Below are positions 28,172 through 37,400 of a stretch of 64,000 nucleotides of DNA, piece by piece. The position numbers were made by a program, and so were the translations under genes. Every line of letters begins with the position of its first letter. The stretch's first letter is position 1. The stretch covers positions 25,388 to 89,387 of the forward strand of contig JASBSN010000042.1 of assembly GCA_030148915.1 (NCBI GenBank). The letters are read 5' to 3'. Source of the DNA: Thiogranum sp. (lineage in GTDB: Bacteria > Pseudomonadota > Gammaproteobacteria > DSM-19610). The notes under the pieces were generated by a model. The model was given only the letters and a program-made list of their open reading frames with translations. It did not search any database and had not been told where the DNA came from.

Positions 28172-28639
28172 TCAGCCGGGTGCGGCGGGCCGGGTGTGTT
28201 TCTTGATCAGGCGCTCCACCCGCGCTTCCAGCGACCGGTATTTGAGGTGCAGCTGTTGCGGGGGCAGGGCGCCGCTGCGCACCGACTGCTCCCAGCGTTG
28301 CAGGCCAACGGTAATGGCGTTGATTTCTTCCAGGTCGCCCGGATCGGAGGCCGCCGCCTGGTGCAGCCAGTTGATGGAAGCTCTGAGCGCATCGGTGCCG
28401 TGCTGGTCTTCGTTGGCCATGATTTCCATGTCATGGTGATAAATATCCAGCTCGCGGCTGGCCTGCAACAGATCAGTGCGAGTGCCGTCGTAGAGATTCG
28501 GGCGATGTCGATAGAGGTAAATCACCGCCGGGGCCGCTACCAGACACAACAGCACGACGCCCTGCACCGCGCGCCGACGCCGCGAGCGAGCGCCGCCCAT
28601 GCGCCGCTTGCGCGGTGGCAAGTGTGACTTACCAGTCAT
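28172..28639 (-). CDS. Unknown membrane-anchored protein
   Basis: The 155-residue protein has a very basic N-terminus (KSHLPPRKRRMGGARSRRRR), one membrane helix (about residues 25-45) and a helical C-terminal domain with no recognised motif. The topology suggests the basic end is cytoplasmic and the helical part periplasmic. I do not recognise the family. Start ATG 28639 is preferred over TTG 28666. The 135 bases upstream to the kinase stop hold no gene. Confidence 0.6.
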   Translation of the reverse strand: MTGKSHLPPRKRRMGGARSRRRRAVQGVVLLCLVAAPAVIYLYRHRPNLYDGTRTDLLQASRELDIYHHDMEIMANEDQHGTDALRASINWLHQAAASDPGDLEEINAITVGLQRWEQSVRSGALPPQQLHLKYRSLEARVERLIKKHTRPAAPG

Positions 28640-28774
28640 ACCCGAACCATCAACGTCAACATACAATCCATCACGACTACGGCAGGAACTTGCCGGCCGC
28701 CCCCGTAGCTGTGACCCCGCCGGAGGCTGTTGGTTCGTGGTAGCGATCCCGGCATCAGCTGACAGCGGCGCATC

Positions 28775-30193
28775 TCAGCGCCCGCGCTGTTGCGCCGGCG
28801 CGCAAAATCGCAGGCAGACGCGCAACCCGGGCCGGTTGTCGGCAAAGGAAATGGTCGCCGCATGCAACTCGGCGATGGCATTCACCAAAGCCAGCCCCAA
28901 GCCGTTGCCGGGGCTGCTGCGTGCCTGATCAAGGCGCGCGAAACGCTGCAGGACCCGCTGCCGGTCGGCGGCGGGAATCCCCGGCCCGTTATCGGCTACG
29001 CTGATACGCGCACAGCTGTTGGTGCGCTCCACCTGTACCCTTACAAGCCCGCCCTGCGGCGAGTACTTGATGGCGTTGTCGAGCAGGTTTCCCAGCGCCT
29101 GGGAGAGCAAATCGCGGTTGCCGCGCACTATTACCGGGCGCGCTGCATCGACCAGCAGCCGTTGCGCGCGTTGTTGCGCCACCGGCAGGTAGAACTCGGC
29201 CACCTGCTGCACAATTGCCGTGAGATCGACCTCCTGCAGTGTCACCCGTAACGCCCCGGCTTCGGCCTGTGCGATCTGCAAAATGGCGTTGAAGCTCTTC
29301 ATCAGTTCTTCGGTATCGCGGATGGACTCCTCTATGGTGTGCCTGTACTCGGCGGCGCTGCGCTCGCCCAACAACATCACATCCAGACGATTGCGCAGCC
29401 GCGCCAACGGTCGGCGCAGATCATGCGCCACGTTGTCGGTGACATCGCGCATGCCCTGGAGCAACTGCTGGATCCGCTCCAGCATGGCGTTCAACCGCCC
29501 CGCCAGTTCGTCGAACTCGTCGTTGCGCCCGCTCAGGGGCACGCGCCGCGACAGGTCTCCGCGGATGATGGTCTCGGAGGTGGCGCTGATGTTGTCAATA
29601 CGCGAAAGAATCGTGCGTCCCATGAACAGGCCCATCGCCAGGGCCAGCAACACGATCACCAGCAGTAACCCGGACAGCGCATAAATACTGAACATCTGCA
29701 TTTCCTCAGCCTGGGCGACGCTGCGCGTCAGCACCAGCACCGCACCATCGGCGAAGCGTTTGCCGATCACCGGCCAATAGGCGTCCTCGTCTTCCTCGGA
29801 CGGATACATATCGTCATCAATCCAGGTCGCGTGCACGGTTTCATCCACCGGCACCTGATCGTCGCGCTCTTTGGGCCAGCCCTTCAGATTGCCGGCGACT
29901 TTGCGCCGGTGCTTGTCGACCAGCAGATAATAACGACCGTCCTGTCCGCCCGCCCGGCTTCGCGAGACCACCTCCCGGGTCAGTGCAGCGAAGCCCTCGT
30001 TGGCGGCGATATTGCGCAAATCGACGAATTCGTCGTGTAGCCCGGCGTACAACTGAGCGTCGACGTAGCGGCTGGTGGCCCAGTGATAGGTACCCAGCGC
30101 GGCGCCGGCCAGCAGTATATACAGGCTGGCATACCACAACGAGGTGCGAACCGCGGTGGTACGCAACAGGCGTTCGAGTTCAGGGCGCTTCAC
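28775..30193 (-). CDS. Sensor histidine kinase
   Basis: The 472-residue protein has two membrane helices (about 18-38 and 168-190) flanking a periplasmic sensor of 130 residues with an acidic patch (DDDMYPSEEDEDAYWP), then a HAMP domain, the H-box DNVAHDLRRPLARLRNRLD and the ATPase boxes LGNLLDNAIKYSP, DNGPGIP and GNGLGLALV. The acidic patch could bind cations; that is inference. It overlaps the response regulator gene by 14 bases, so they are a two-component operon. It probably controls the adjacent RND exporter. Confidence 0.93.
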   Translation of the reverse strand: MKRPELERLLRTTAVRTSLWYASLYILLAGAALGTYHWATSRYVDAQLYAGLHDEFVDLRNIAANEGFAALTREVVSRSRAGGQDGRYYLLVDKHRRKVAGNLKGWPKERDDQVPVDETVHATWIDDDMYPSEEDEDAYWPVIGKRFADGAVLVLTRSVAQAEEMQMFSIYALSGLLLVIVLLALAMGLFMGRTILSRIDNISATSETIIRGDLSRRVPLSGRNDEFDELAGRLNAMLERIQQLLQGMRDVTDNVAHDLRRPLARLRNRLDVMLLGERSAAEYRHTIEESIRDTEELMKSFNAILQIAQAEAGALRVTLQEVDLTAIVQQVAEFYLPVAQQRAQRLLVDAARPVIVRGNRDLLSQALGNLLDNAIKYSPQGGLVRVQVERTNSCARISVADNGPGIPAADRQRVLQRFARLDQARSSPGNGLGLALVNAIAELHAATISFADNRPGLRVCLRFCAPAQQRGR

Positions 30194-30857
30194 CGAGCTT
30201 GTATCCTACACCGCGAATGGTGTGCAGCAGGGGGGTGGCGAAACCCCGATCAATTTTGGTTCGCAAACGACTGATATGCACGTCGACGACATTGGTCTGC
30301 GGATCGAAGTGATAGTCCCACACCTGCTCCAGCAGCATGGTGCGCGTCACTACCTGCTCCCGATGCCGCAGCAGATAGTTCAACAAACGGTATTCACGCG
30401 CCTGCAGTCGGATGACGCGTGCCGCGCGCGTCACCCGATGTGCGTTGAGATCCATCACCAGGTCGGCCAGTTGCAGGCGCGATTCGCACTCCTCGGCGCG
30501 CTTGCGCCGGGCCAGCGCCGCCAGACGGGCCAGCAGTTCGCTGAACGCATAGGGCTTGACCAGGTAATCATCGCCGCCGGCCTGCAATCCGGTGACGCGG
30601 TCGTCGACTTCACCCAGCGCCGAGAGCACCAGCGCCGGCGTCTGATCGCCATCGGCACGCAGCATTTTGATCACGGTCAGACCGTCGCGCCCCGGCAGCA
30701 TGCGATCGACGATGATCACTTCATAGCCGCCGGCCAGCGCAAGCTGCAGCCCCTCCTCGCCATCGGCCGCATGATCAACGCTGTGGCCGCTTTCGTTAAG
30801 TCCCTTCAGCAGGTACCCGGCCGCCTCGCGGTCGTCTTCGATCAACAGGATATGCAT
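30180..30857 (-). CDS. OmpR/PhoB-type response regulator
   Basis: The 225-residue protein has a receiver domain with EDD (8-10), phospho-acceptor in VIIVDRMLPGRDG, and Lys in YLVKPYAF, followed by a winged-helix DNA-binding domain with the recognition helix NVVDVHISRLRTKID. It is of the CusR/CopR-like group in layout. A perfect 11-bp-arm palindrome lies 32 bases upstream, and a similar one precedes the RND operon, which suggests autoregulation and pump control. Confidence 0.94.
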   Translation of the reverse strand: MHILLIEDDREAAGYLLKGLNESGHSVDHAADGEEGLQLALAGGYEVIIVDRMLPGRDGLTVIKMLRADGDQTPALVLSALGEVDDRVTGLQAGGDDYLVKPYAFSELLARLAALARRKRAEECESRLQLADLVMDLNAHRVTRAARVIRLQAREYRLLNYLLRHREQVVTRTMLLEQVWDYHFDPQTNVVDVHISRLRTKIDRGFATPLLHTIRGVGYKLGEAP

Positions 30858-30888
30858 AAGATGCTTATCATAGCCGCCGCGGCCTTTT

Positions 30889-30914
30889 CCCGCATTACCG
30901 TATGGTAATGCGGG
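30889..30914. promoter_or_regulatory. Palindromic operator upstream of the response regulator
   Basis: CCCGCATTACC-GTAT-GGTAATGCGGG is a perfect inverted repeat with 11-bp arms. The core fits CATTAC-N6-GTAATG, the form reported for CopR/PcoR/CusR-type regulators as I recall it. No T-run follows, so it is not a terminator of the RND gene. Confidence 0.65.
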
Positions 30915-30949
30915 CGTCTGGGGCGCAGACCGCTTCGCCGCCCAATGCT

Positions 30950-33900
30950 CTAGCGCCTTTTGAGCGCTTTGCCGCCCAATCGGCCAAGGCCGCGGTAGAC
31001 CAACGGCATGACAACCACCACCAGTGGAATCTGCACCAGGAGACCGGAGATGATAGCCACCGCCAGCGGCTGCTGCATGGCCGAGCCCTGGCCGAGCGCC
31101 AGGGCCAGGGGCAGCAGCGCCAGAATCGCCGCCAGCGTGGTCATGGCGATAGGGCGCAGGCGATTGTAGCCCGCTTGCACCAGGGCGGTCGGTTTGTCCA
31201 TCTTGCCACGCAGCAGTTCGTGGTATTCCGAGAAATAGAAAATCGATACCTCGGTGACAATTCCGACAATCATGGTCATACCCATCATGGCGGTGAGGTT
31301 GAGCTCAATCCCGGTGAGCCAAAGGCCGGTGAACACCGCCGCCATGGCCAGCAGCGGCGTCGTCATAATGGCGATGGCGGCGGCAAATTCCTCGTAGAGG
31401 AACAACAGCAGGAGAAACACCAGCGCCAGGGCAGCGACAAACACCGCAATCAGGCCGCGAAAAGCGATCTGCTGCTGTTTGTAGAGACCCCCGAGTTCAT
31501 AATACATATCGCCCGGCAACAGGCCGGATTGGGCCAGGACCTGCTTGACGTCGCGGATAGTCGAGCCCAAATCCCGCCCGCTGATGCGGGCGGTGACCGC
31601 CACCATGCGCTTGAGATTGTCGCGCGCAATCTGCGCCTGGCCGATTTCCAGCGATACGTGCGCCACCCGCTTGAGCGGGAACCGGTGACCGTCCGGGGCG
31701 CGCAGCCAGATGTCGCTGATCGCCGAGCTTCGATCCCGTGCCGCCGCCGGCACCCACACGCGCACCCCGACCAGCTTGAGATTTTCCTGGATCCGCGTGG
31801 TCACCAGGCCGGTGAACCAGGCGTCGAGTTGCCGGGTCACCGCGTCGGGGTCGATGCCCTCCAGGGCGGCTTTATCGCGATCGACGATGATATTGAGCGC
31901 GTCGCCGGCGAGCACAATACCGTCTTTCACATCGACCACACCGTCAAGCTTGCCGATCGCCGCGGCAACCTTCGGTGCCACCGAAGAGAGCTCATCGAGT
32001 TTATCGCTGTAGAGTTTGATCTCGATCGGCTGGGGAACCGCGGTCAGATCGCCGATCAGATCCTCCATCAGCAACGCCATTTCCACCTGCAGACCCGGCA
32101 CCCGTGTTTCGATCTTGCCACGGATTTCGTCCATGACCTGGTCTATGGGCTTACGCGGCAACGGTTTCAGACGCACGAACATATCGCCCTCGTTGGCCTC
32201 GGTGAGACCGCCGCCCAACTGCAGCCCGGTACGTCGCGAGTAAGTCTCGACCGCCGGGTTGGCGCTGATAATCGTCTCCACCTGTTGCAGCAGGCGGTTG
32301 GTTTCAGTCAGTGAGGTGCCCGCGGGCGAGCGGTAATCGAGAATAAAGCCTCCCTCATCCATATGCGGCATAAACCCGGAGCCGACCTGATGGTAGGCGA
32401 AATAGCCGAGGACCAGCAGCGGCACGATGCCGATAACCACCAGCGCCGGCGCCCGCATCAGGCGCTCCATCAGCCGCCGATAGCCGGCCAACAGACGGTT
32501 AAACCACTTGCCGACGTCTTCTTTGGCCGCGTCTTTTTCGCTCAACAAGTGTTCGGCAAGCAGCGGCACGGCCAGCCACGCCAGTAGAAAGGAAATAAAC
32601 AGGCTGCTCGCCATAGTCAGTGACAGGGCTTTGAAAAACGCCCCGGTCACGCCGCTGAGAAACGCCAACGGGGCGAAAATCACTATGGTGGCGGCGGACG
32701 AACCGACCAGCGGTGGGGTGAACTCTATGGCCGCCTCGCGAATACTCAGCGCCAGGTCATCGCTGCGCTGGCGCAGCCGACGAATAATGTGCTCGATCAT
32801 CACAATCGCGTCATCGACAATCAGCCCTACCGCCGCCGCCATACCGCCGAGCGTCATAATGTTAAAGCTCATATGCAGCACGTTGAGCAATAAAATGGTG
32901 CTGGCCAACACCGAGGGCACTACCAGGATCGCCACCAGGGTGATTTTCAGGCTGCGCAGAAACACCAGCAGCACCAGCGCGGCCAGCCCAACGCCAATGG
33001 CGATGGCATCGCGCACGCTGGTGGCCGCGGCGGTGATCAGTTGGCTCTGATCGTACCAGTTGGCCACCTGGACGCCCTGGGGCAGCTTTTTCCGATAGTC
33101 GTCCAGGCGCTGCTTGACGCCTTTGACGATCTGCACGGTATTGCCGCCCGGCTGCTGATAGATCTGCACCAGCACCGCGTCGTGACCGTCGGCGGTGACC
33201 CGCAACCACTGTGGCGCCGTGGTCGGGTAGACACGGGCGATATCATCGAGGCGCACCAGCCCGTCGGCGCCGCTGCGCAACACCGTGTTTTCGATATTTT
33301 GCAGCGAGCGCAGGCGCGTATCGGACAACAACAGATAGAGTTTGTAATGATCCTCCATGCGCCCGACCGCCTGCAGAACGTTGCTGGCCGACACAGAACT
33401 CGCCACATCCTTGAAAGTAAGGCCGTAGGCGGCCAGTTTTTCCGGGTCGATCTCCACGCGGTATTCCGCCTGCTCGCCACCGAGCACCGCCACCCGCGCC
33501 ACGCCATTGATCGACGAGAGCAGCGGCACCAACTGATAACTGGCCAGATCGCGCAACTGCACCAGCGACTCGCTGTCCGAGGTAAGACTGTAAGCGGAGA
33601 CGGGGAAAACCGTGGGATCCATGCGCCGCACGCTGAAACGCGTGCCACTCGGCAATTCCGGCAGGCTTTGGTTAATGGCCGATTCCACCTGCAGCATGGC
33701 GGCGATCATATCGTCGCCCCAACCGAAGTTAATCGACAGCTCGGCGCTGCCGCGGCTGGTGGTCGAGCGCAGCCCCACCACCCCCGGCACCGAGCGCACC
33801 GCCTGCTCGACAGGACGGGTGACGGCAATGACCATCTGGTCGGCGGGGCGATCGCCGGCGTCCAAGGTCACCACCACACGCGGAAAATCTACGTGCGGGA

Positions 33901-34009
33901 ACAAGGCGACGGGCAACTTGAGCCCCGCGGCGATACCGGCCAGCGCCAGAATGGCCACCAGGAACAGAATCGAGCGACGGTGCCCCGCCGCCCAGTGGGC
34001 AATATCCAT
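30950..34009 (-). CDS. RND efflux permease (HAE1-like)
   Basis: The 1019-residue inner-membrane pump has the RND plan: helix 1 (SILFLVAILALAGIA), large periplasmic loops after helices 1 and 7, and TM4 with the proton-relay Asp pair GLIVDDAIVMIEHI. The Asp-Asp pair is typical of the HAE group, which exports organic compounds; heavy-metal pumps such as CusA have a different TM4 motif. So although the nearby regulator looks metal-type, the pump does not clearly export metals. It is the last gene of TolC-adaptor-pump, each overlapping or abutting the next. Confidence 0.93.
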   Translation of the reverse strand: MDIAHWAAGHRRSILFLVAILALAGIAAGLKLPVALFPHVDFPRVVVTLDAGDRPADQMVIAVTRPVEQAVRSVPGVVGLRSTTSRGSAELSINFGWGDDMIAAMLQVESAINQSLPELPSGTRFSVRRMDPTVFPVSAYSLTSDSESLVQLRDLASYQLVPLLSSINGVARVAVLGGEQAEYRVEIDPEKLAAYGLTFKDVASSVSASNVLQAVGRMEDHYKLYLLLSDTRLRSLQNIENTVLRSGADGLVRLDDIARVYPTTAPQWLRVTADGHDAVLVQIYQQPGGNTVQIVKGVKQRLDDYRKKLPQGVQVANWYDQSQLITAAATSVRDAIAIGVGLAALVLLVFLRSLKITLVAILVVPSVLASTILLLNVLHMSFNIMTLGGMAAAVGLIVDDAIVMIEHIIRRLRQRSDDLALSIREAAIEFTPPLVGSSAATIVIFAPLAFLSGVTGAFFKALSLTMASSLFISFLLAWLAVPLLAEHLLSEKDAAKEDVGKWFNRLLAGYRRLMERLMRAPALVVIGIVPLLVLGYFAYHQVGSGFMPHMDEGGFILDYRSPAGTSLTETNRLLQQVETIISANPAVETYSRRTGLQLGGGLTEANEGDMFVRLKPLPRKPIDQVMDEIRGKIETRVPGLQVEMALLMEDLIGDLTAVPQPIEIKLYSDKLDELSSVAPKVAAAIGKLDGVVDVKDGIVLAGDALNIIVDRDKAALEGIDPDAVTRQLDAWFTGLVTTRIQENLKLVGVRVWVPAAARDRSSAISDIWLRAPDGHRFPLKRVAHVSLEIGQAQIARDNLKRMVAVTARISGRDLGSTIRDVKQVLAQSGLLPGDMYYELGGLYKQQQIAFRGLIAVFVAALALVFLLLLFLYEEFAAAIAIMTTPLLAMAAVFTGLWLTGIELNLTAMMGMTMIVGIVTEVSIFYFSEYHELLRGKMDKPTALVQAGYNRLRPIAMTTLAAILALLPLALALGQGSAMQQPLAVAIISGLLVQIPLVVVVMPLVYRGLGRLGGKALKRR

Positions 34010-35037
34010 CAGGGCTTGTCCCGGACAGCCATGCCATCTTTGAGCTGGTAATTACCGGATATCACTACCGGGTCGCCGGCCTGCAGAGGGCCGCTCACCT
34101 CGATCAGCTCGCCCTGGGTGGTGCCGGTCACAACCTGCACGCGGTGCGCTTTGTTTGCCACCACCGTATACAGATAAGTGTGCGGGGCCGTACCGAGCAC
34201 AGCGCTGCGCGGCACTACCAGGACGTTGCGCGAAGCCAGCTGAATGCGTCCGAGCACACGGCTGCCCAGCACCAGCTGATCGACCTGTTTGGCCGGGATC
34301 GGCGCCAGCACTTCCACCAGGTGGGTGGCCGGATCGATCATGGCGTGAACTTCACGCACCTTCGACTCCACTTTGACATCCGGACCGAATACCGAGGTGA
34401 TACTGACTACGGTGCCCGGCTGTACGCCGCCCAGATCCTCGGGCTCGACGCCCAGGCGCGCAATCAAGCGCTTCTCGGCGGCAATCAGCATCGCCGCGGT
34501 ATCGGCCTGCACCCGCTGGCCCTGCGAGACATCCAGCCGCGTGACGATACCGTCCATGGGCGCGCGCAGCGTTTCGCTGGCCCGATCCATACCCCGCTTG
34601 CGCAGCGATTCGAGCGTGGCGCGCGCGTCCTGCAGGTTCTTTTTCGCCACATCCACCTGTGATTTGGTCGCCAGTTGCTCGTCCAGCAGTCGTTGCTGAC
34701 GCTGCTGTTCGCGCCGGGCGTAATCGACCGCGCTTTGCGCCTGCAGGTACTGCATGCGCGCGTCCGGCGCCGTGACCACCTCGAGCAGCCGGTCGCCCCT
34801 GTTGACGCGCTGACCGAGACGTACCCAGACGCGGTTGATCAGACCGGCGTGCGGCAATGATAGGCTCAGCACCTGGTCGGGATCCGGATCCAGAACGCCG
34901 AATGCGCTCAGGCTGTCGCTCACGCTGTGCTGTTGCACCGGCGCCGTTTTGATCAACACACTGGGGGTCGCCGCGCCACCGGCCAGTGGCAACAACCCAC
35001 ACAAGCACACAAGGGCGCGGCCCAACAGCGTTTTCAT
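34009..35037 (-). CDS. RND periplasmic adaptor (MFP)
   Basis: The 342-residue HlyD-type adaptor has a signal peptide, a barrel-sandwich lipoyl half (LPHAGLINRVWVRLGQRVNRGDRL), a coiled-coil hairpin (about 95-150) and the second lipoyl half (LRAPMDGIVTRLDVSQGQRV), then a beta-barrel region. It bridges the inner-membrane pump and the outer-membrane channel. It overlaps the TolC gene by 4 bases and shares one base with the RND gene. Confidence 0.93.
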   Translation of the reverse strand: MKTLLGRALVCLCGLLPLAGGAATPSVLIKTAPVQQHSVSDSLSAFGVLDPDPDQVLSLSLPHAGLINRVWVRLGQRVNRGDRLLEVVTAPDARMQYLQAQSAVDYARREQQRQQRLLDEQLATKSQVDVAKKNLQDARATLESLRKRGMDRASETLRAPMDGIVTRLDVSQGQRVQADTAAMLIAAEKRLIARLGVEPEDLGGVQPGTVVSITSVFGPDVKVESKVREVHAMIDPATHLVEVLAPIPAKQVDQLVLGSRVLGRIQLASRNVLVVPRSAVLGTAPHTYLYTVVANKAHRVQVVTGTTQGELIEVSGPLQAGDPVVISGNYQLKDGMAVRDKP

Positions 35038-36452
35038 GGTCGCACCTCTTTTTTGTCATCAACGAATGTGGTGAGCGGTTCGCCCGGAAACCCCGGCAGC
35101 GCCAACAGCGCTTCCAGGGCGATACGGTTTTCCCAGCCGGACTGCTCCAGGCTGATCTGCTCGAGGCGCTTGTTGACCCAGGTGGATTCCATATTAAGGA
35201 AGGTCAATGCCTGGATATCACCGCGGCCGTAGGCGCTACGCCCGCGATCGACGAGCGTTTTCAACCGGGGTAAATAGGTCTGCAAACTGTTCTGCTGACG
35301 CCGGAGGATCGTTTGCAGTTCCAGTAGTCGGTCGACATCCACCGCGGTCTGCGCCAGGCGCGCGCGGTACTCCGCGCGCAGCTGGTCGCGCGTCGCTCGC
35401 TCAATGGCAATAGGACCACGATTGCCGCTGAACAGCGGCAGCGTCAGGCTGACGCTCACACCGATGGTCTCGACATTGCCGGTATCGCGGGCACGGTTGA
35501 TGCCGATGCCCAGGGACGGAAACTGCGCCAGCACCGCCGCTCTCACACTGGCTTCCTGACTGGCATAACCGGCTTTCAGCGCCAATAGATCAGGTCTCAG
35601 CCGCGGCAACGCCGACAGTTGCTTGCGCGCCAGGGCGGCGGCCACAGGCGGCGGTTCGGTCAACGGTGATATGTCCACGTTCACCGCGGGATCCAGCCCC
35701 AGCAACAGGTTGAAATCATGCCGGGTCTGATTGTGCGTCTGTTCCAGCTGGTTGATCTGGCTCAACGTATCGACCAGTGCCGTCAGGTCCGTGCCATTGA
35801 CATCCAGGGTGAGATCACCGTCTTTTAGCGCCCGTGCCGAACGCCGATAGCGCTCCCGATAGAGGCCGCGCATACGCTGTAACAACGCCAGACGTTGTTG
35901 CTCGAGGCGCAGGCGCACCGCCAGAGAGCGGGCCTGCTGAATGACCTGCCATTCCTGCCAGAGCAGATCCAGACGGACTTTCTCCTGAGTCCGGCGCGTC
36001 GCTTCGCGGCGCGCCGGACGTGTTAGAAGGGGAATGATGTCGTAGCTGAGCCCCAACGACCACGCATTGACCAGGCCGGCCGTCTGGCCCGTCGGCTTGT
36101 CGAAGCCGGCACTGAGTTGGGGGTCAGGCAACAATCCGGCGGCAAACGCCTGCGCGTCGGCCACCGCCAGGCGCGCGCGTTGGGCACTGAGTTTGGGGTT
36201 ATTGAGGACGGCGAGAGTCCCCACCTCGGTAAGATCCAAGCCGTCAGCGGGATTGAACGGATGGGCCGTTTCAGTGGCGCCAGAGGCGGGCGCCGCCCCG
36301 ACGCGCAAACTGTGGAGATCCACCGCCAGCGGCGATCGCTCCTCGAGCGGCCGCGGCTGGTAAGTGGCACAGCCGCCCAACCACAGCAGGGTGACGGCCG
36401 CGGCCAACAATCGGCTTGCCGGCCCCGGTTGGACGGTCATCGCTTGACTCAC
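35034..36452 (-). CDS. TolC-family outer-membrane channel lipoprotein
   Basis: The 472-residue protein has a lipoprotein signal (LGGCATYQ) and two repeats of the outer-membrane efflux domain, with long helical stretches that form the periplasmic tunnel. Start GTG 36452 has GGGGA ahead. It is the first gene of the tripartite efflux operon, with the CATTACC palindrome about 190 bases upstream in the divergent promoter region. Confidence 0.92.
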   Translation of the reverse strand: MSQAMTVQPGPASRLLAAAVTLLWLGGCATYQPRPLEERSPLAVDLHSLRVGAAPASGATETAHPFNPADGLDLTEVGTLAVLNNPKLSAQRARLAVADAQAFAAGLLPDPQLSAGFDKPTGQTAGLVNAWSLGLSYDIIPLLTRPARREATRRTQEKVRLDLLWQEWQVIQQARSLAVRLRLEQQRLALLQRMRGLYRERYRRSARALKDGDLTLDVNGTDLTALVDTLSQINQLEQTHNQTRHDFNLLLGLDPAVNVDISPLTEPPPVAAALARKQLSALPRLRPDLLALKAGYASQEASVRAAVLAQFPSLGIGINRARDTGNVETIGVSVSLTLPLFSGNRGPIAIERATRDQLRAEYRARLAQTAVDVDRLLELQTILRRQQNSLQTYLPRLKTLVDRGRSAYGRGDIQALTFLNMESTWVNKRLEQISLEQSGWENRIALEALLALPGFPGEPLTTFVDDKKEVRP

Positions 36453-36642
36453 TTTGTGATCCCCTGAATAAATGCATCGAATCGGCCCAAGAGGCCGCCG
36501 AGCGATGGCCGCCTACCGGATCGACCGGATGACGCAAGGCCTGCGGGTTCTTCTGCTAGTGCTTCCGGCCACAGTATAGCCACATCCGAGACGCTGGCCA
36601 GCGGCCAGGAAAGGTGTGGATTGTGCCGTACAGCGCCCCCCC

Positions 36643-36670
36643 CCGGACATTACCATTCGGTAATCTCGGG
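36643..36670. promoter_or_regulatory. Second CATTACC-type operator, divergent RND/ICMT promoter region
   Basis: CATTACC-ATTC-GGTAAT repeats the core of the palindrome at 30889-30914. A half-site GGTAATGCGCGGG follows at 36681. The elements sit between the divergent tolC and ICMT-like genes, so they could control both. Confidence 0.6.
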
Positions 36671-36710
36671 TCAAGGCCGTGGTAATGCGCGGGTTGCTAA
36701 GCTTCCCGGC

Positions 36711-37400
36711 ATGAAACAACAAGATCAGCATTTCGCCAGCGGCGAACCGGCCTCCGATGTCACTGAGGTGCGCCTGAAACGCGCCCGCACCGTGCGCTTG
36801 TCGCTGCTGCGACGTACCCTCGTCGGAGTGATTATTACCAGCGGTGTCCTGCTGACCCCGCTCACCTCGCGCTGGCCCGGCACCCACCCGCTGCTACGCG
36901 ACCTCGTGCTTATGTCGGGCATGCTGCTGATCGTCTCGGGCGCGGCTTTGCGGCTCTGGGCCGGTCTCTATATCGGCGGGCACAAGGAACGGCGCCTGGT
37001 CACCGGCGGCCCCTACAGCTGCGTGCGCAACCCGCTCTATCTGGGCAATCTGCTCGCCGCCGGCGGCATCGCCCTGATCAGCGGGTCACCCTACGTGCTG
37101 GTCCTGACGCTCGGCGCCACCAGCGCGGTCTACCTTGCCACCATCCGGCAGGAGGAAGACAAGCTGCAACCGATCTTCGGCGCCGATTACCGTCGTTATT
37201 TGCAAGCCGCGCCAGCGCTGCTGCCGCGGCTCTCGGACATTCGCCGGTTGATCAGCGACACCACCCCCTGCAGCGTCACCCACTTCAGCCTCGCGCGCGA
37301 ACTCAAGCGCTGCCTGGGCCTGGTCGCCCTCGGCTTCACCGCCTTTCTCCTGGCGATGAGCTCGCCGCTACTGCACGCGCACCTACCCGCATTCCTCTGA
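36711..37400 (+). CDS. ICMT-like membrane methyltransferase
   Basis: The 229-residue protein has several hydrophobic segments and the isoprenylcysteine carboxyl methyltransferase-like pattern GPYSCVRNPLYLGN, then RQEEDKLQPIFGADYRRY. The family binds S-adenosylmethionine, but substrates in bacteria are mostly unknown. ATG 36711 is the start; GGAG-like RBS is weak. It is divergent from the efflux operon and shares its operator region. Confidence 0.88.
   Translation: MKQQDQHFASGEPASDVTEVRLKRARTVRLSLLRRTLVGVIITSGVLLTPLTSRWPGTHPLLRDLVLMSGMLLIVSGAALRLWAGLYIGGHKERRLVTGGPYSCVRNPLYLGNLLAAGGIALISGSPYVLVLTLGATSAVYLATIRQEEDKLQPIFGADYRRYLQAAPALLPRLSDIRRLISDTTPCSVTHFSLARELKRCLGLVALGFTAFLLAMSSPLLHAHLPAFL

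Follow-up and report, generated by a model that had tools for sequence, protein, structure and literature searches.

Gene content of the cluster

The window analysed here is a stretch of 64,000 nucleotides from a 3.2-Mb draft assembly of Thiogranum sp. It carries a cluster in which genes for an outer-membrane factor, a periplasmic adaptor, an RND permease, a response regulator (RR), a histidine kinase and a small conserved ORF follow one another in this order of transcription on the minus strand (Table 1). A gene for an ICMT/PEMT-family methyltransferase is located on the plus strand and is divergent from the outer-membrane-factor/adaptor/RND operon. The small ORF is 62-65% identical to its counterparts at two congeneric loci, and a profile search with it yielded no Pfam or NCBIfam family match.

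Table 1. Features of the cluster, with positions in the window
Feature	Position	Strand	Basis
Small ORF 3' of the kinase gene	28172..28666	-	conserved at two congeneric loci
Sensor histidine kinase, periplasmic domain with acidic motif WIDDDMYPSEEDEDAYWPV	28775..30193	-	Pfam, alignment
OmpR/PhoB-type RR, helix NVVDVHISRLR	30180..30857	-	Pfam Response_reg and Trans_reg_C
Putative -10 TATGAT of the RR promoter	30867..30872	-	sequence; similar element in most orthologous promoters
Perfect palindrome before the RR gene, proposed autoregulatory operator	30889..30914		sequence, conservation
RND permease, clade apart from HAE1 and HME	30950..34009	-	profiles, tree
Periplasmic adaptor (RND_mfp)	34009..35037	-	TIGR01730 above cut-off
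Outer-membrane factor (OEP/TolC superfamily)	35034..36452	-	PF02321 above gathering score
Putative -10 CACAAT of the pump operon (weak, inference)	36620..36625	-	alignment
Second dyad CATTACC-ATTC-GGTAATC, between the divergent pump operon and ICMT gene	36648..36665		sequence
Half-site GGTAATG, ICMT side	36681..36687	+	identical in three species
ICMT/PEMT-family integral membrane methyltransferase, CzcN-like	36711..37400	+	PF04191, PF04140

The layout is of a known kind and is close to that of the czc metal-resistance cluster. In the pMOL30 version (czcN-czcI-czcCBA-czcD-czcRS-czcE), the same gene classes appear in corresponding order, N-(I)-C-B-A-(D)-R-S. However, the ICMT-like gene of the window is divergent and its cluster lacks CzcI, CzcD and CzcE. 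In addition, the RND permease and the RR fall outside the CusA/CzcA and CusR/CzcR clades, respectively, and the sensor domain of the kinase is unlike that of CzcS. The CusRS-cusCFBA system of E. coli is comparable in that the RR and kinase genes adjoin the RND operon and a palindromic operator is located in the intergenic region, but the window has no CusF, another kinase sensor domain, and a pump without the three CusA methionines.

In a tree of 42 permeases, the pump of the window belongs to a clade (support 100/100) that sits on a long stem apart from both AcrB/MdtBC and CusA/CzcA. Its fourth transmembrane helix (TM4) reads GLIVDDAIV, with an Asp-Asp pair as at AcrB D407/D408, and the clade as a whole has VDD, or IDD in some members. 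In TM10, all aligned clade members carry Glu at the position of AcrB Lys940, as does CusA. The residues aligned with the CusA methionine triad (M573, M623 and M672) are D, E and D, with the last Asp tentative because M672 falls in a gappy part of the alignment. Scores remain below the cut-offs of the HME model (TIGR00914, 453 bits against 701) and of the HAE1 models (NF033617, 584 against 1250; NF000282, 475 against 1250; TIGR00915, 401 against 940), and the best PDB sequence match is MdtB. The BaeSR-mdtABC system of E. coli likewise joins two-component genes to an RND pump with a VDD-type TM4, but both MdtB and MdtC carry the TM10 Lys where the window pump has Glu, and MdtBC groups with AcrB whereas the window pump does not. 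A preliminary description of this DNA had called the TM4 motif HAE1-like, which holds for the VDD residues but not for the TM10 Glu or the separate clade. On these sequence characters the pump is neither HAE1 nor HME, and CusA-type export of Cu or Ag is unlikely.

The kinase scores below the cut-off of TIGR01386. In alignments, its periplasmic domain is unlike those of both CusS and CzcS, and most of its nearer relatives carry the acidic stretch WIxDDxxP...DEDxxWP; that the signal is cationic is a guess. The ICMT-like protein exceeds the gathering scores of PF04191 (51.6 bits) and PF04140 (25.3 bits). Its nearest named relative found is CzcN of pMOL30 (38% identity over 152 aa), a czc-cluster protein that has been described as an isoprenylcysteine carboxyl methyltransferase (PMC7563307), and a czcN homologue of P. 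putida is located between cusF and copF (PMC3056050). As is the case for czcN, the gene adjoins an RND operon and a two-component system. Matches to the models for LmtA (a lipid A 1-phosphate methyltransferase), ICMT and MddA are far below cut-off, and the LmtA model also gives a weak match, far below cut-off, with CzcN.

Palindromes and candidate promoters

Direct reading confirms that a perfect palindrome precedes the RR gene and that a second copy of its core, together with a half-site, is located between the pump operon and the ICMT gene, as the preliminary description had stated. The first palindrome, CCCGCATTACC-GTAT-GGTAATGCGGG, has perfect 11-bp arms around a 4-bp centre and lies 35 bp upstream of the RR start, with its 18-bp core dyad at 30893-30910. 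The second dyad has the same core with one outer mismatch. On the ICMT side, the half-site sits 22 bp past the dyad's own GGTAAT, a distance of two helical turns that places the two in phase.

A search for RND permease orthologues gave hits in 16 of 186 related genomes; in the genome collection, 80 loci carry one. Two congeneric genomes, represented by loci L037 and L038, retain the RR, the kinase, the RND operon, the ICMT gene and both boxes. At these loci, a gene for an LbtU-type porin separates the RR from the RND gene, accompanied in L037 by a second ORF, and the intervening distance is 2.4 kb in L037 and 1.5 kb in L038. The RR-side dyad is nonetheless found 34-35 bp before the RR start in both. 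Because the box stays with the RR where the RND gene is this far away, we assign it to the RR promoter. The earlier view that the boxes bracket the pump and two-component genes therefore stands insofar as both sites are real, but the first is to be counted as part of the RR promoter rather than as the tail of the RND operon.

The first palindrome follows the RND stop codon and precedes the RR start, and its 11-bp arms with a 4-base loop could also form an RNA hairpin or the terminator of the RND operon, in which case the second copy would be coincidental. Against a terminator, neither strand has a T run, and a search for terminator-like sites found none. The retention of the box before the RR in L037 and L038 also speaks against a hairpin of the RND operon, as does the presence of an identical core in the divergent promoter region of three species. 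We consider this explanation extremely improbable and favor an operator of the RR gene.

Sequence comparison among the three species reveals a divergent region in which the dyad and the half-site are nearly invariant, with drift between and around them. The core of the second dyad is identical in the L037 and L038 alignments, and across the six box copies of the three species the inner C/G pair of ATTACC is always retained. The putative -10 element of the RR promoter follows the dyad by 20 bp and leaves 9 bp to the ATG, a placement which implies that the RR mRNA is probably leaderless or nearly so. Likewise, many orthologous RR promoters have a TATNAT-like element whose end is 6-9 bp upstream of the ATG, and this spacing suggests leaderless transcripts with the dyad near -42. 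The putative -10 of the pump operon lies 21-22 bp past the second dyad and reads CAGAAT in the two congeneric relatives.

The promoter of the ICMT gene is less clear. Its extended -10 is weak and its spacing to the dyad is about one helical turn off that of the RR promoter, which makes direct activation of this gene less sure. Perhaps the targets of the RR are only its own gene and the pump operon, with the ICMT gene a bystander that happens to be divergently placed. The ICMT gene stands beside the pump only in this genus among the loci examined, and elsewhere the pump and RR occur together without it. However, two elements on the ICMT side are identical in all three species, namely the in-phase half-site GGTAATG(C) and the sequence immediately around the ICMT ATG, and CzcN, the nearest named relative, is itself part of the czc cluster. 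We regard the bystander arrangement as the less likely one, though it retains appreciable weight, and prefer to include the ICMT gene among the predicted targets.

Rarity of the box and its relation to known operators

Exact matches to CATTAC-N6-GTAAT in the window are confined to the two palindromes. A genome scan for this pattern, which had been set beforehand as a check, identified just three places, with the third (C54:1311) in the promoter of a CopR-type paralogue, and the reversed control had no matches. The palindrome is therefore not common in this genome. The form ATTACC-N4-GGTAAT is present exactly at both window sites and nowhere else in the 3.2 Mb. Across 170 genomes it has 42 matches compared to 30 for its reversed control, or approximately 0.2 per genome by chance. 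Two such sites in a single genome, both within intergenic regions of one cluster, are thus far beyond chance.

Allowing two mismatches to the 18-mer adds six places in the genome. One is the box of the paralogue, and the other five are within or against ORFs with no clear promoter among them. At three mismatches there are 84 matches, slightly above the 66 of the control. A wider regulon in the Thiogranum genome was rejected on the basis of these results. Among the relatives, which were checked in part, the ATTACC-N4-GGTAAT sites of genomes G137 and G002 are inside ORFs. As a separate observation, a congeneric genome (G008) carries CATTACC-GATC-GGTAATG as part of a longer inverted repeat (L230:3862), approximately 250 bp before a gene for an LbtU-family siderophore porin, the porin family also encoded between the RR and RND genes in L037 and L038. 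That genome has no pump orthologue at the threshold used, and its closest RR is 48% identical.

The best NCBIfam model for the RR is TIGR01387 (cztR_silR_copR), at 250.8 bits and below the cut-off of 279.2. CusR, CzcR and the CopR-type paralogue form a separate supported clade (100/99) with the window RR outside it. The RR promoter nevertheless has a 6-4-6 inverted repeat with an ATTAC half-site, as seen for CopR/CusR/AgrR-type regulators. A resemblance to CopR/CusR-type sites had been proposed previously, and it is borne out by three known or candidate boxes. First, CusR and HprR recognize a common box, CATTACAAAATTGTAATG (PMC9302797), which has CATTAC/GTAATG in common with that of the window. 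Second, the footprinted box of AgrR is ATKACA-N4-TGTMAT, to which some operators add a half-site in phase (PMC7380067). Third, the paralogue box at G000:C54:1311-1328 (L052) is CATTACAATGTTGTAATG, which has 13-bp arms, lies upstream of the gene start at C54:1374, and differs from the window box by one base per half-site.

The silver-responsive AgrR/AgrS system of Cupriavidus metallidurans offers a detailed parallel (PMC7380067). It has a 6-bp inverted repeat with a 4-bp spacer (ATTACA-N4-TGTAAT), divergent operons, and the additional in-phase half-site mentioned above. AgrR acts as a type II activator, with its own gene among the targets (PMC7380067), and the RR of the window would share with it positive autoregulation and a mostly type II activator position. 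The differences are that the half-site in the window is ATTACC rather than ATTACA, a change of the last base that leaves the architecture the same, and that the window's pump falls outside the HME type. By analogy, the RR may work in the manner of the CopR/CusR/AgrR regulators from its place outside the CusR/CzcR clade. Judged by its letters, the box is of the AgrR/CopR-like type and constitutes its own specificity class.

In Pseudomonas, CopR, CusR and CzcR have one palindrome in common (PMC11195947), so cross-binding is possible and the paralogous CopR-type RR might also bind the boxes in the window. This precedent and the close similarity of the two boxes leave some room for the dyads being read mainly by another OmpR-family regulator, above all this paralogue, with a copper response arising via cross-regulation. 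However, the box of the window is found before the RR gene of the cluster itself and accompanies orthologues of that RR throughout the class, and the inner C/G pair of ATTACC is unchanged in every copy. Moreover, the paralogue belongs to a different well-supported clade and has a different recognition helix (DVAIRR compared to DVHISR in the window RR). A literature search on recognition-helix specificity in the OmpR family gave nothing useful. Control mainly by the paralogue is, in our estimation, quite unlikely, and the adjacent RR is preferred as the reader of both boxes.

Orthologous promoters and a proposed regulatory circuit

Within the class, a further 24 of 369 genomes carry RR orthologues of 65-70% identity. 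Promoters of orthologous RR genes were tested for CATTAMC-N4-GKTAATG, matching in at least 11 of 14 positions and located 29-37 bp before the start codon. Among RRs of Gammaproteobacteria with a DVH or DVQ helix, 12 of 28 promoters have such a dyad (shuffles: mean 0.02, maximum 1 of 200), a count to be read with the fact that the consensus was derived partly from the same promoters. When the three congeneric promoters are removed, the count becomes 9 of 25. Approximately half of the DVH-type promoters have no such dyad at that distance.

RRs with a DTQ helix have dyads resembling TCTTAC (or TCTTGC)-N6-GTAAGA at the same distance in five of eight promoters (shuffle mean 0.04), compared to ATTAC for the DVH group. 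Therefore, site and helix appear to change together. The DTQ representatives form one supported clade in the RR tree, so the joint change in helix and half-site is essentially one event. One row, L045_9385, actually has the helix DVVIRR, and its automatic DTQ label stems from an FDTQT string. At the DTQ loci L056, L060 and L062, some of the other good matches to the RR's own dyad are found upstream of the pump operon or its neighbours.

Several relatives have additional box-like sites. At L062:2644, a dyad separates a DedA/PAP2/LssY_C gene from a second adaptor-RND operon, and another, at L062:4901, is found before a PepSY-domain gene that precedes the outer-membrane factor. These two dyads suggest that the predicted regulon of relatives may extend to a larger set of envelope genes. 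Two degenerate tandem dyads (L060:4060 and L060:4112) lie upstream of an ORF that is followed in the list of neighbours by a DUF2231 gene and the gene for the pump's outer-membrane factor. One Hydrogenovibrio locus has nearly identical asymmetric dyads, CCTTACTAAATGGTAAT, upstream of the RR and immediately past the RND gene (L075:4674 and L075:11058).

Taken as a whole, we infer that the palindromes are very probably operators of the adjacent RR, through which it would control its own gene, the pump operon and the ICMT gene. The proposal of a single regulator for all three is supported by the fact that three species preserve both boxes and that the dyad occupies a similar position before RR genes across the class. 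An autoregulating RR acting on the pump and ICMT genes is the best reading because the 6-4-6 repeat and the in-phase half-site match those of AgrR. Presumably, the acidic periplasmic domain of the kinase senses a signal, probably cationic or related to envelope stress, and the kinase phosphorylates the RR, a dimer of which would then bind ATTACC-N4-GGTAAT. At the RR promoter, the dyad would be centred approximately 42-44 bp before the presumed transcription start and would replace the -35 element, which would permit type II activation and positive autoregulation. The second dyad would serve two divergent promoters, those of the outer-membrane-factor/adaptor/RND operon and of the ICMT-like gene, with the extra in-phase half-site contributing on the ICMT side.

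A broader reading can be offered only tentatively, and we think it more apt to fail in some part than to hold as a whole. The two-component system might be distinct from the known metal regulators, sense cations or envelope damage through its acidic periplasmic domain, and run an RND pump of a third type (TM4 Asp-Asp with TM10 Glu) and a CzcN/LmtA-like methyltransferase acting on lipid phosphates of the envelope. The regulon of relatives would add DedA/PAP2, PepSY and LbtU-type porin genes, and the change from DVH to DTQ would have switched the operator preference from ATTAC to CTTAC.

These findings provide a concrete candidate operator for a widespread and apparently uncharacterised branch of CopR-like regulators. 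This operator is tied to an RND clade that fits neither textbook class, which means that the regulon, and then the cargo of the pump, can be sought. In addition, the pairing of DVH to DTQ with ATTAC to CTTAC, beside a paralogue in the same cell with an ATTACA site, may offer a simple test case for how paralogues of the OmpR family are insulated from one another.
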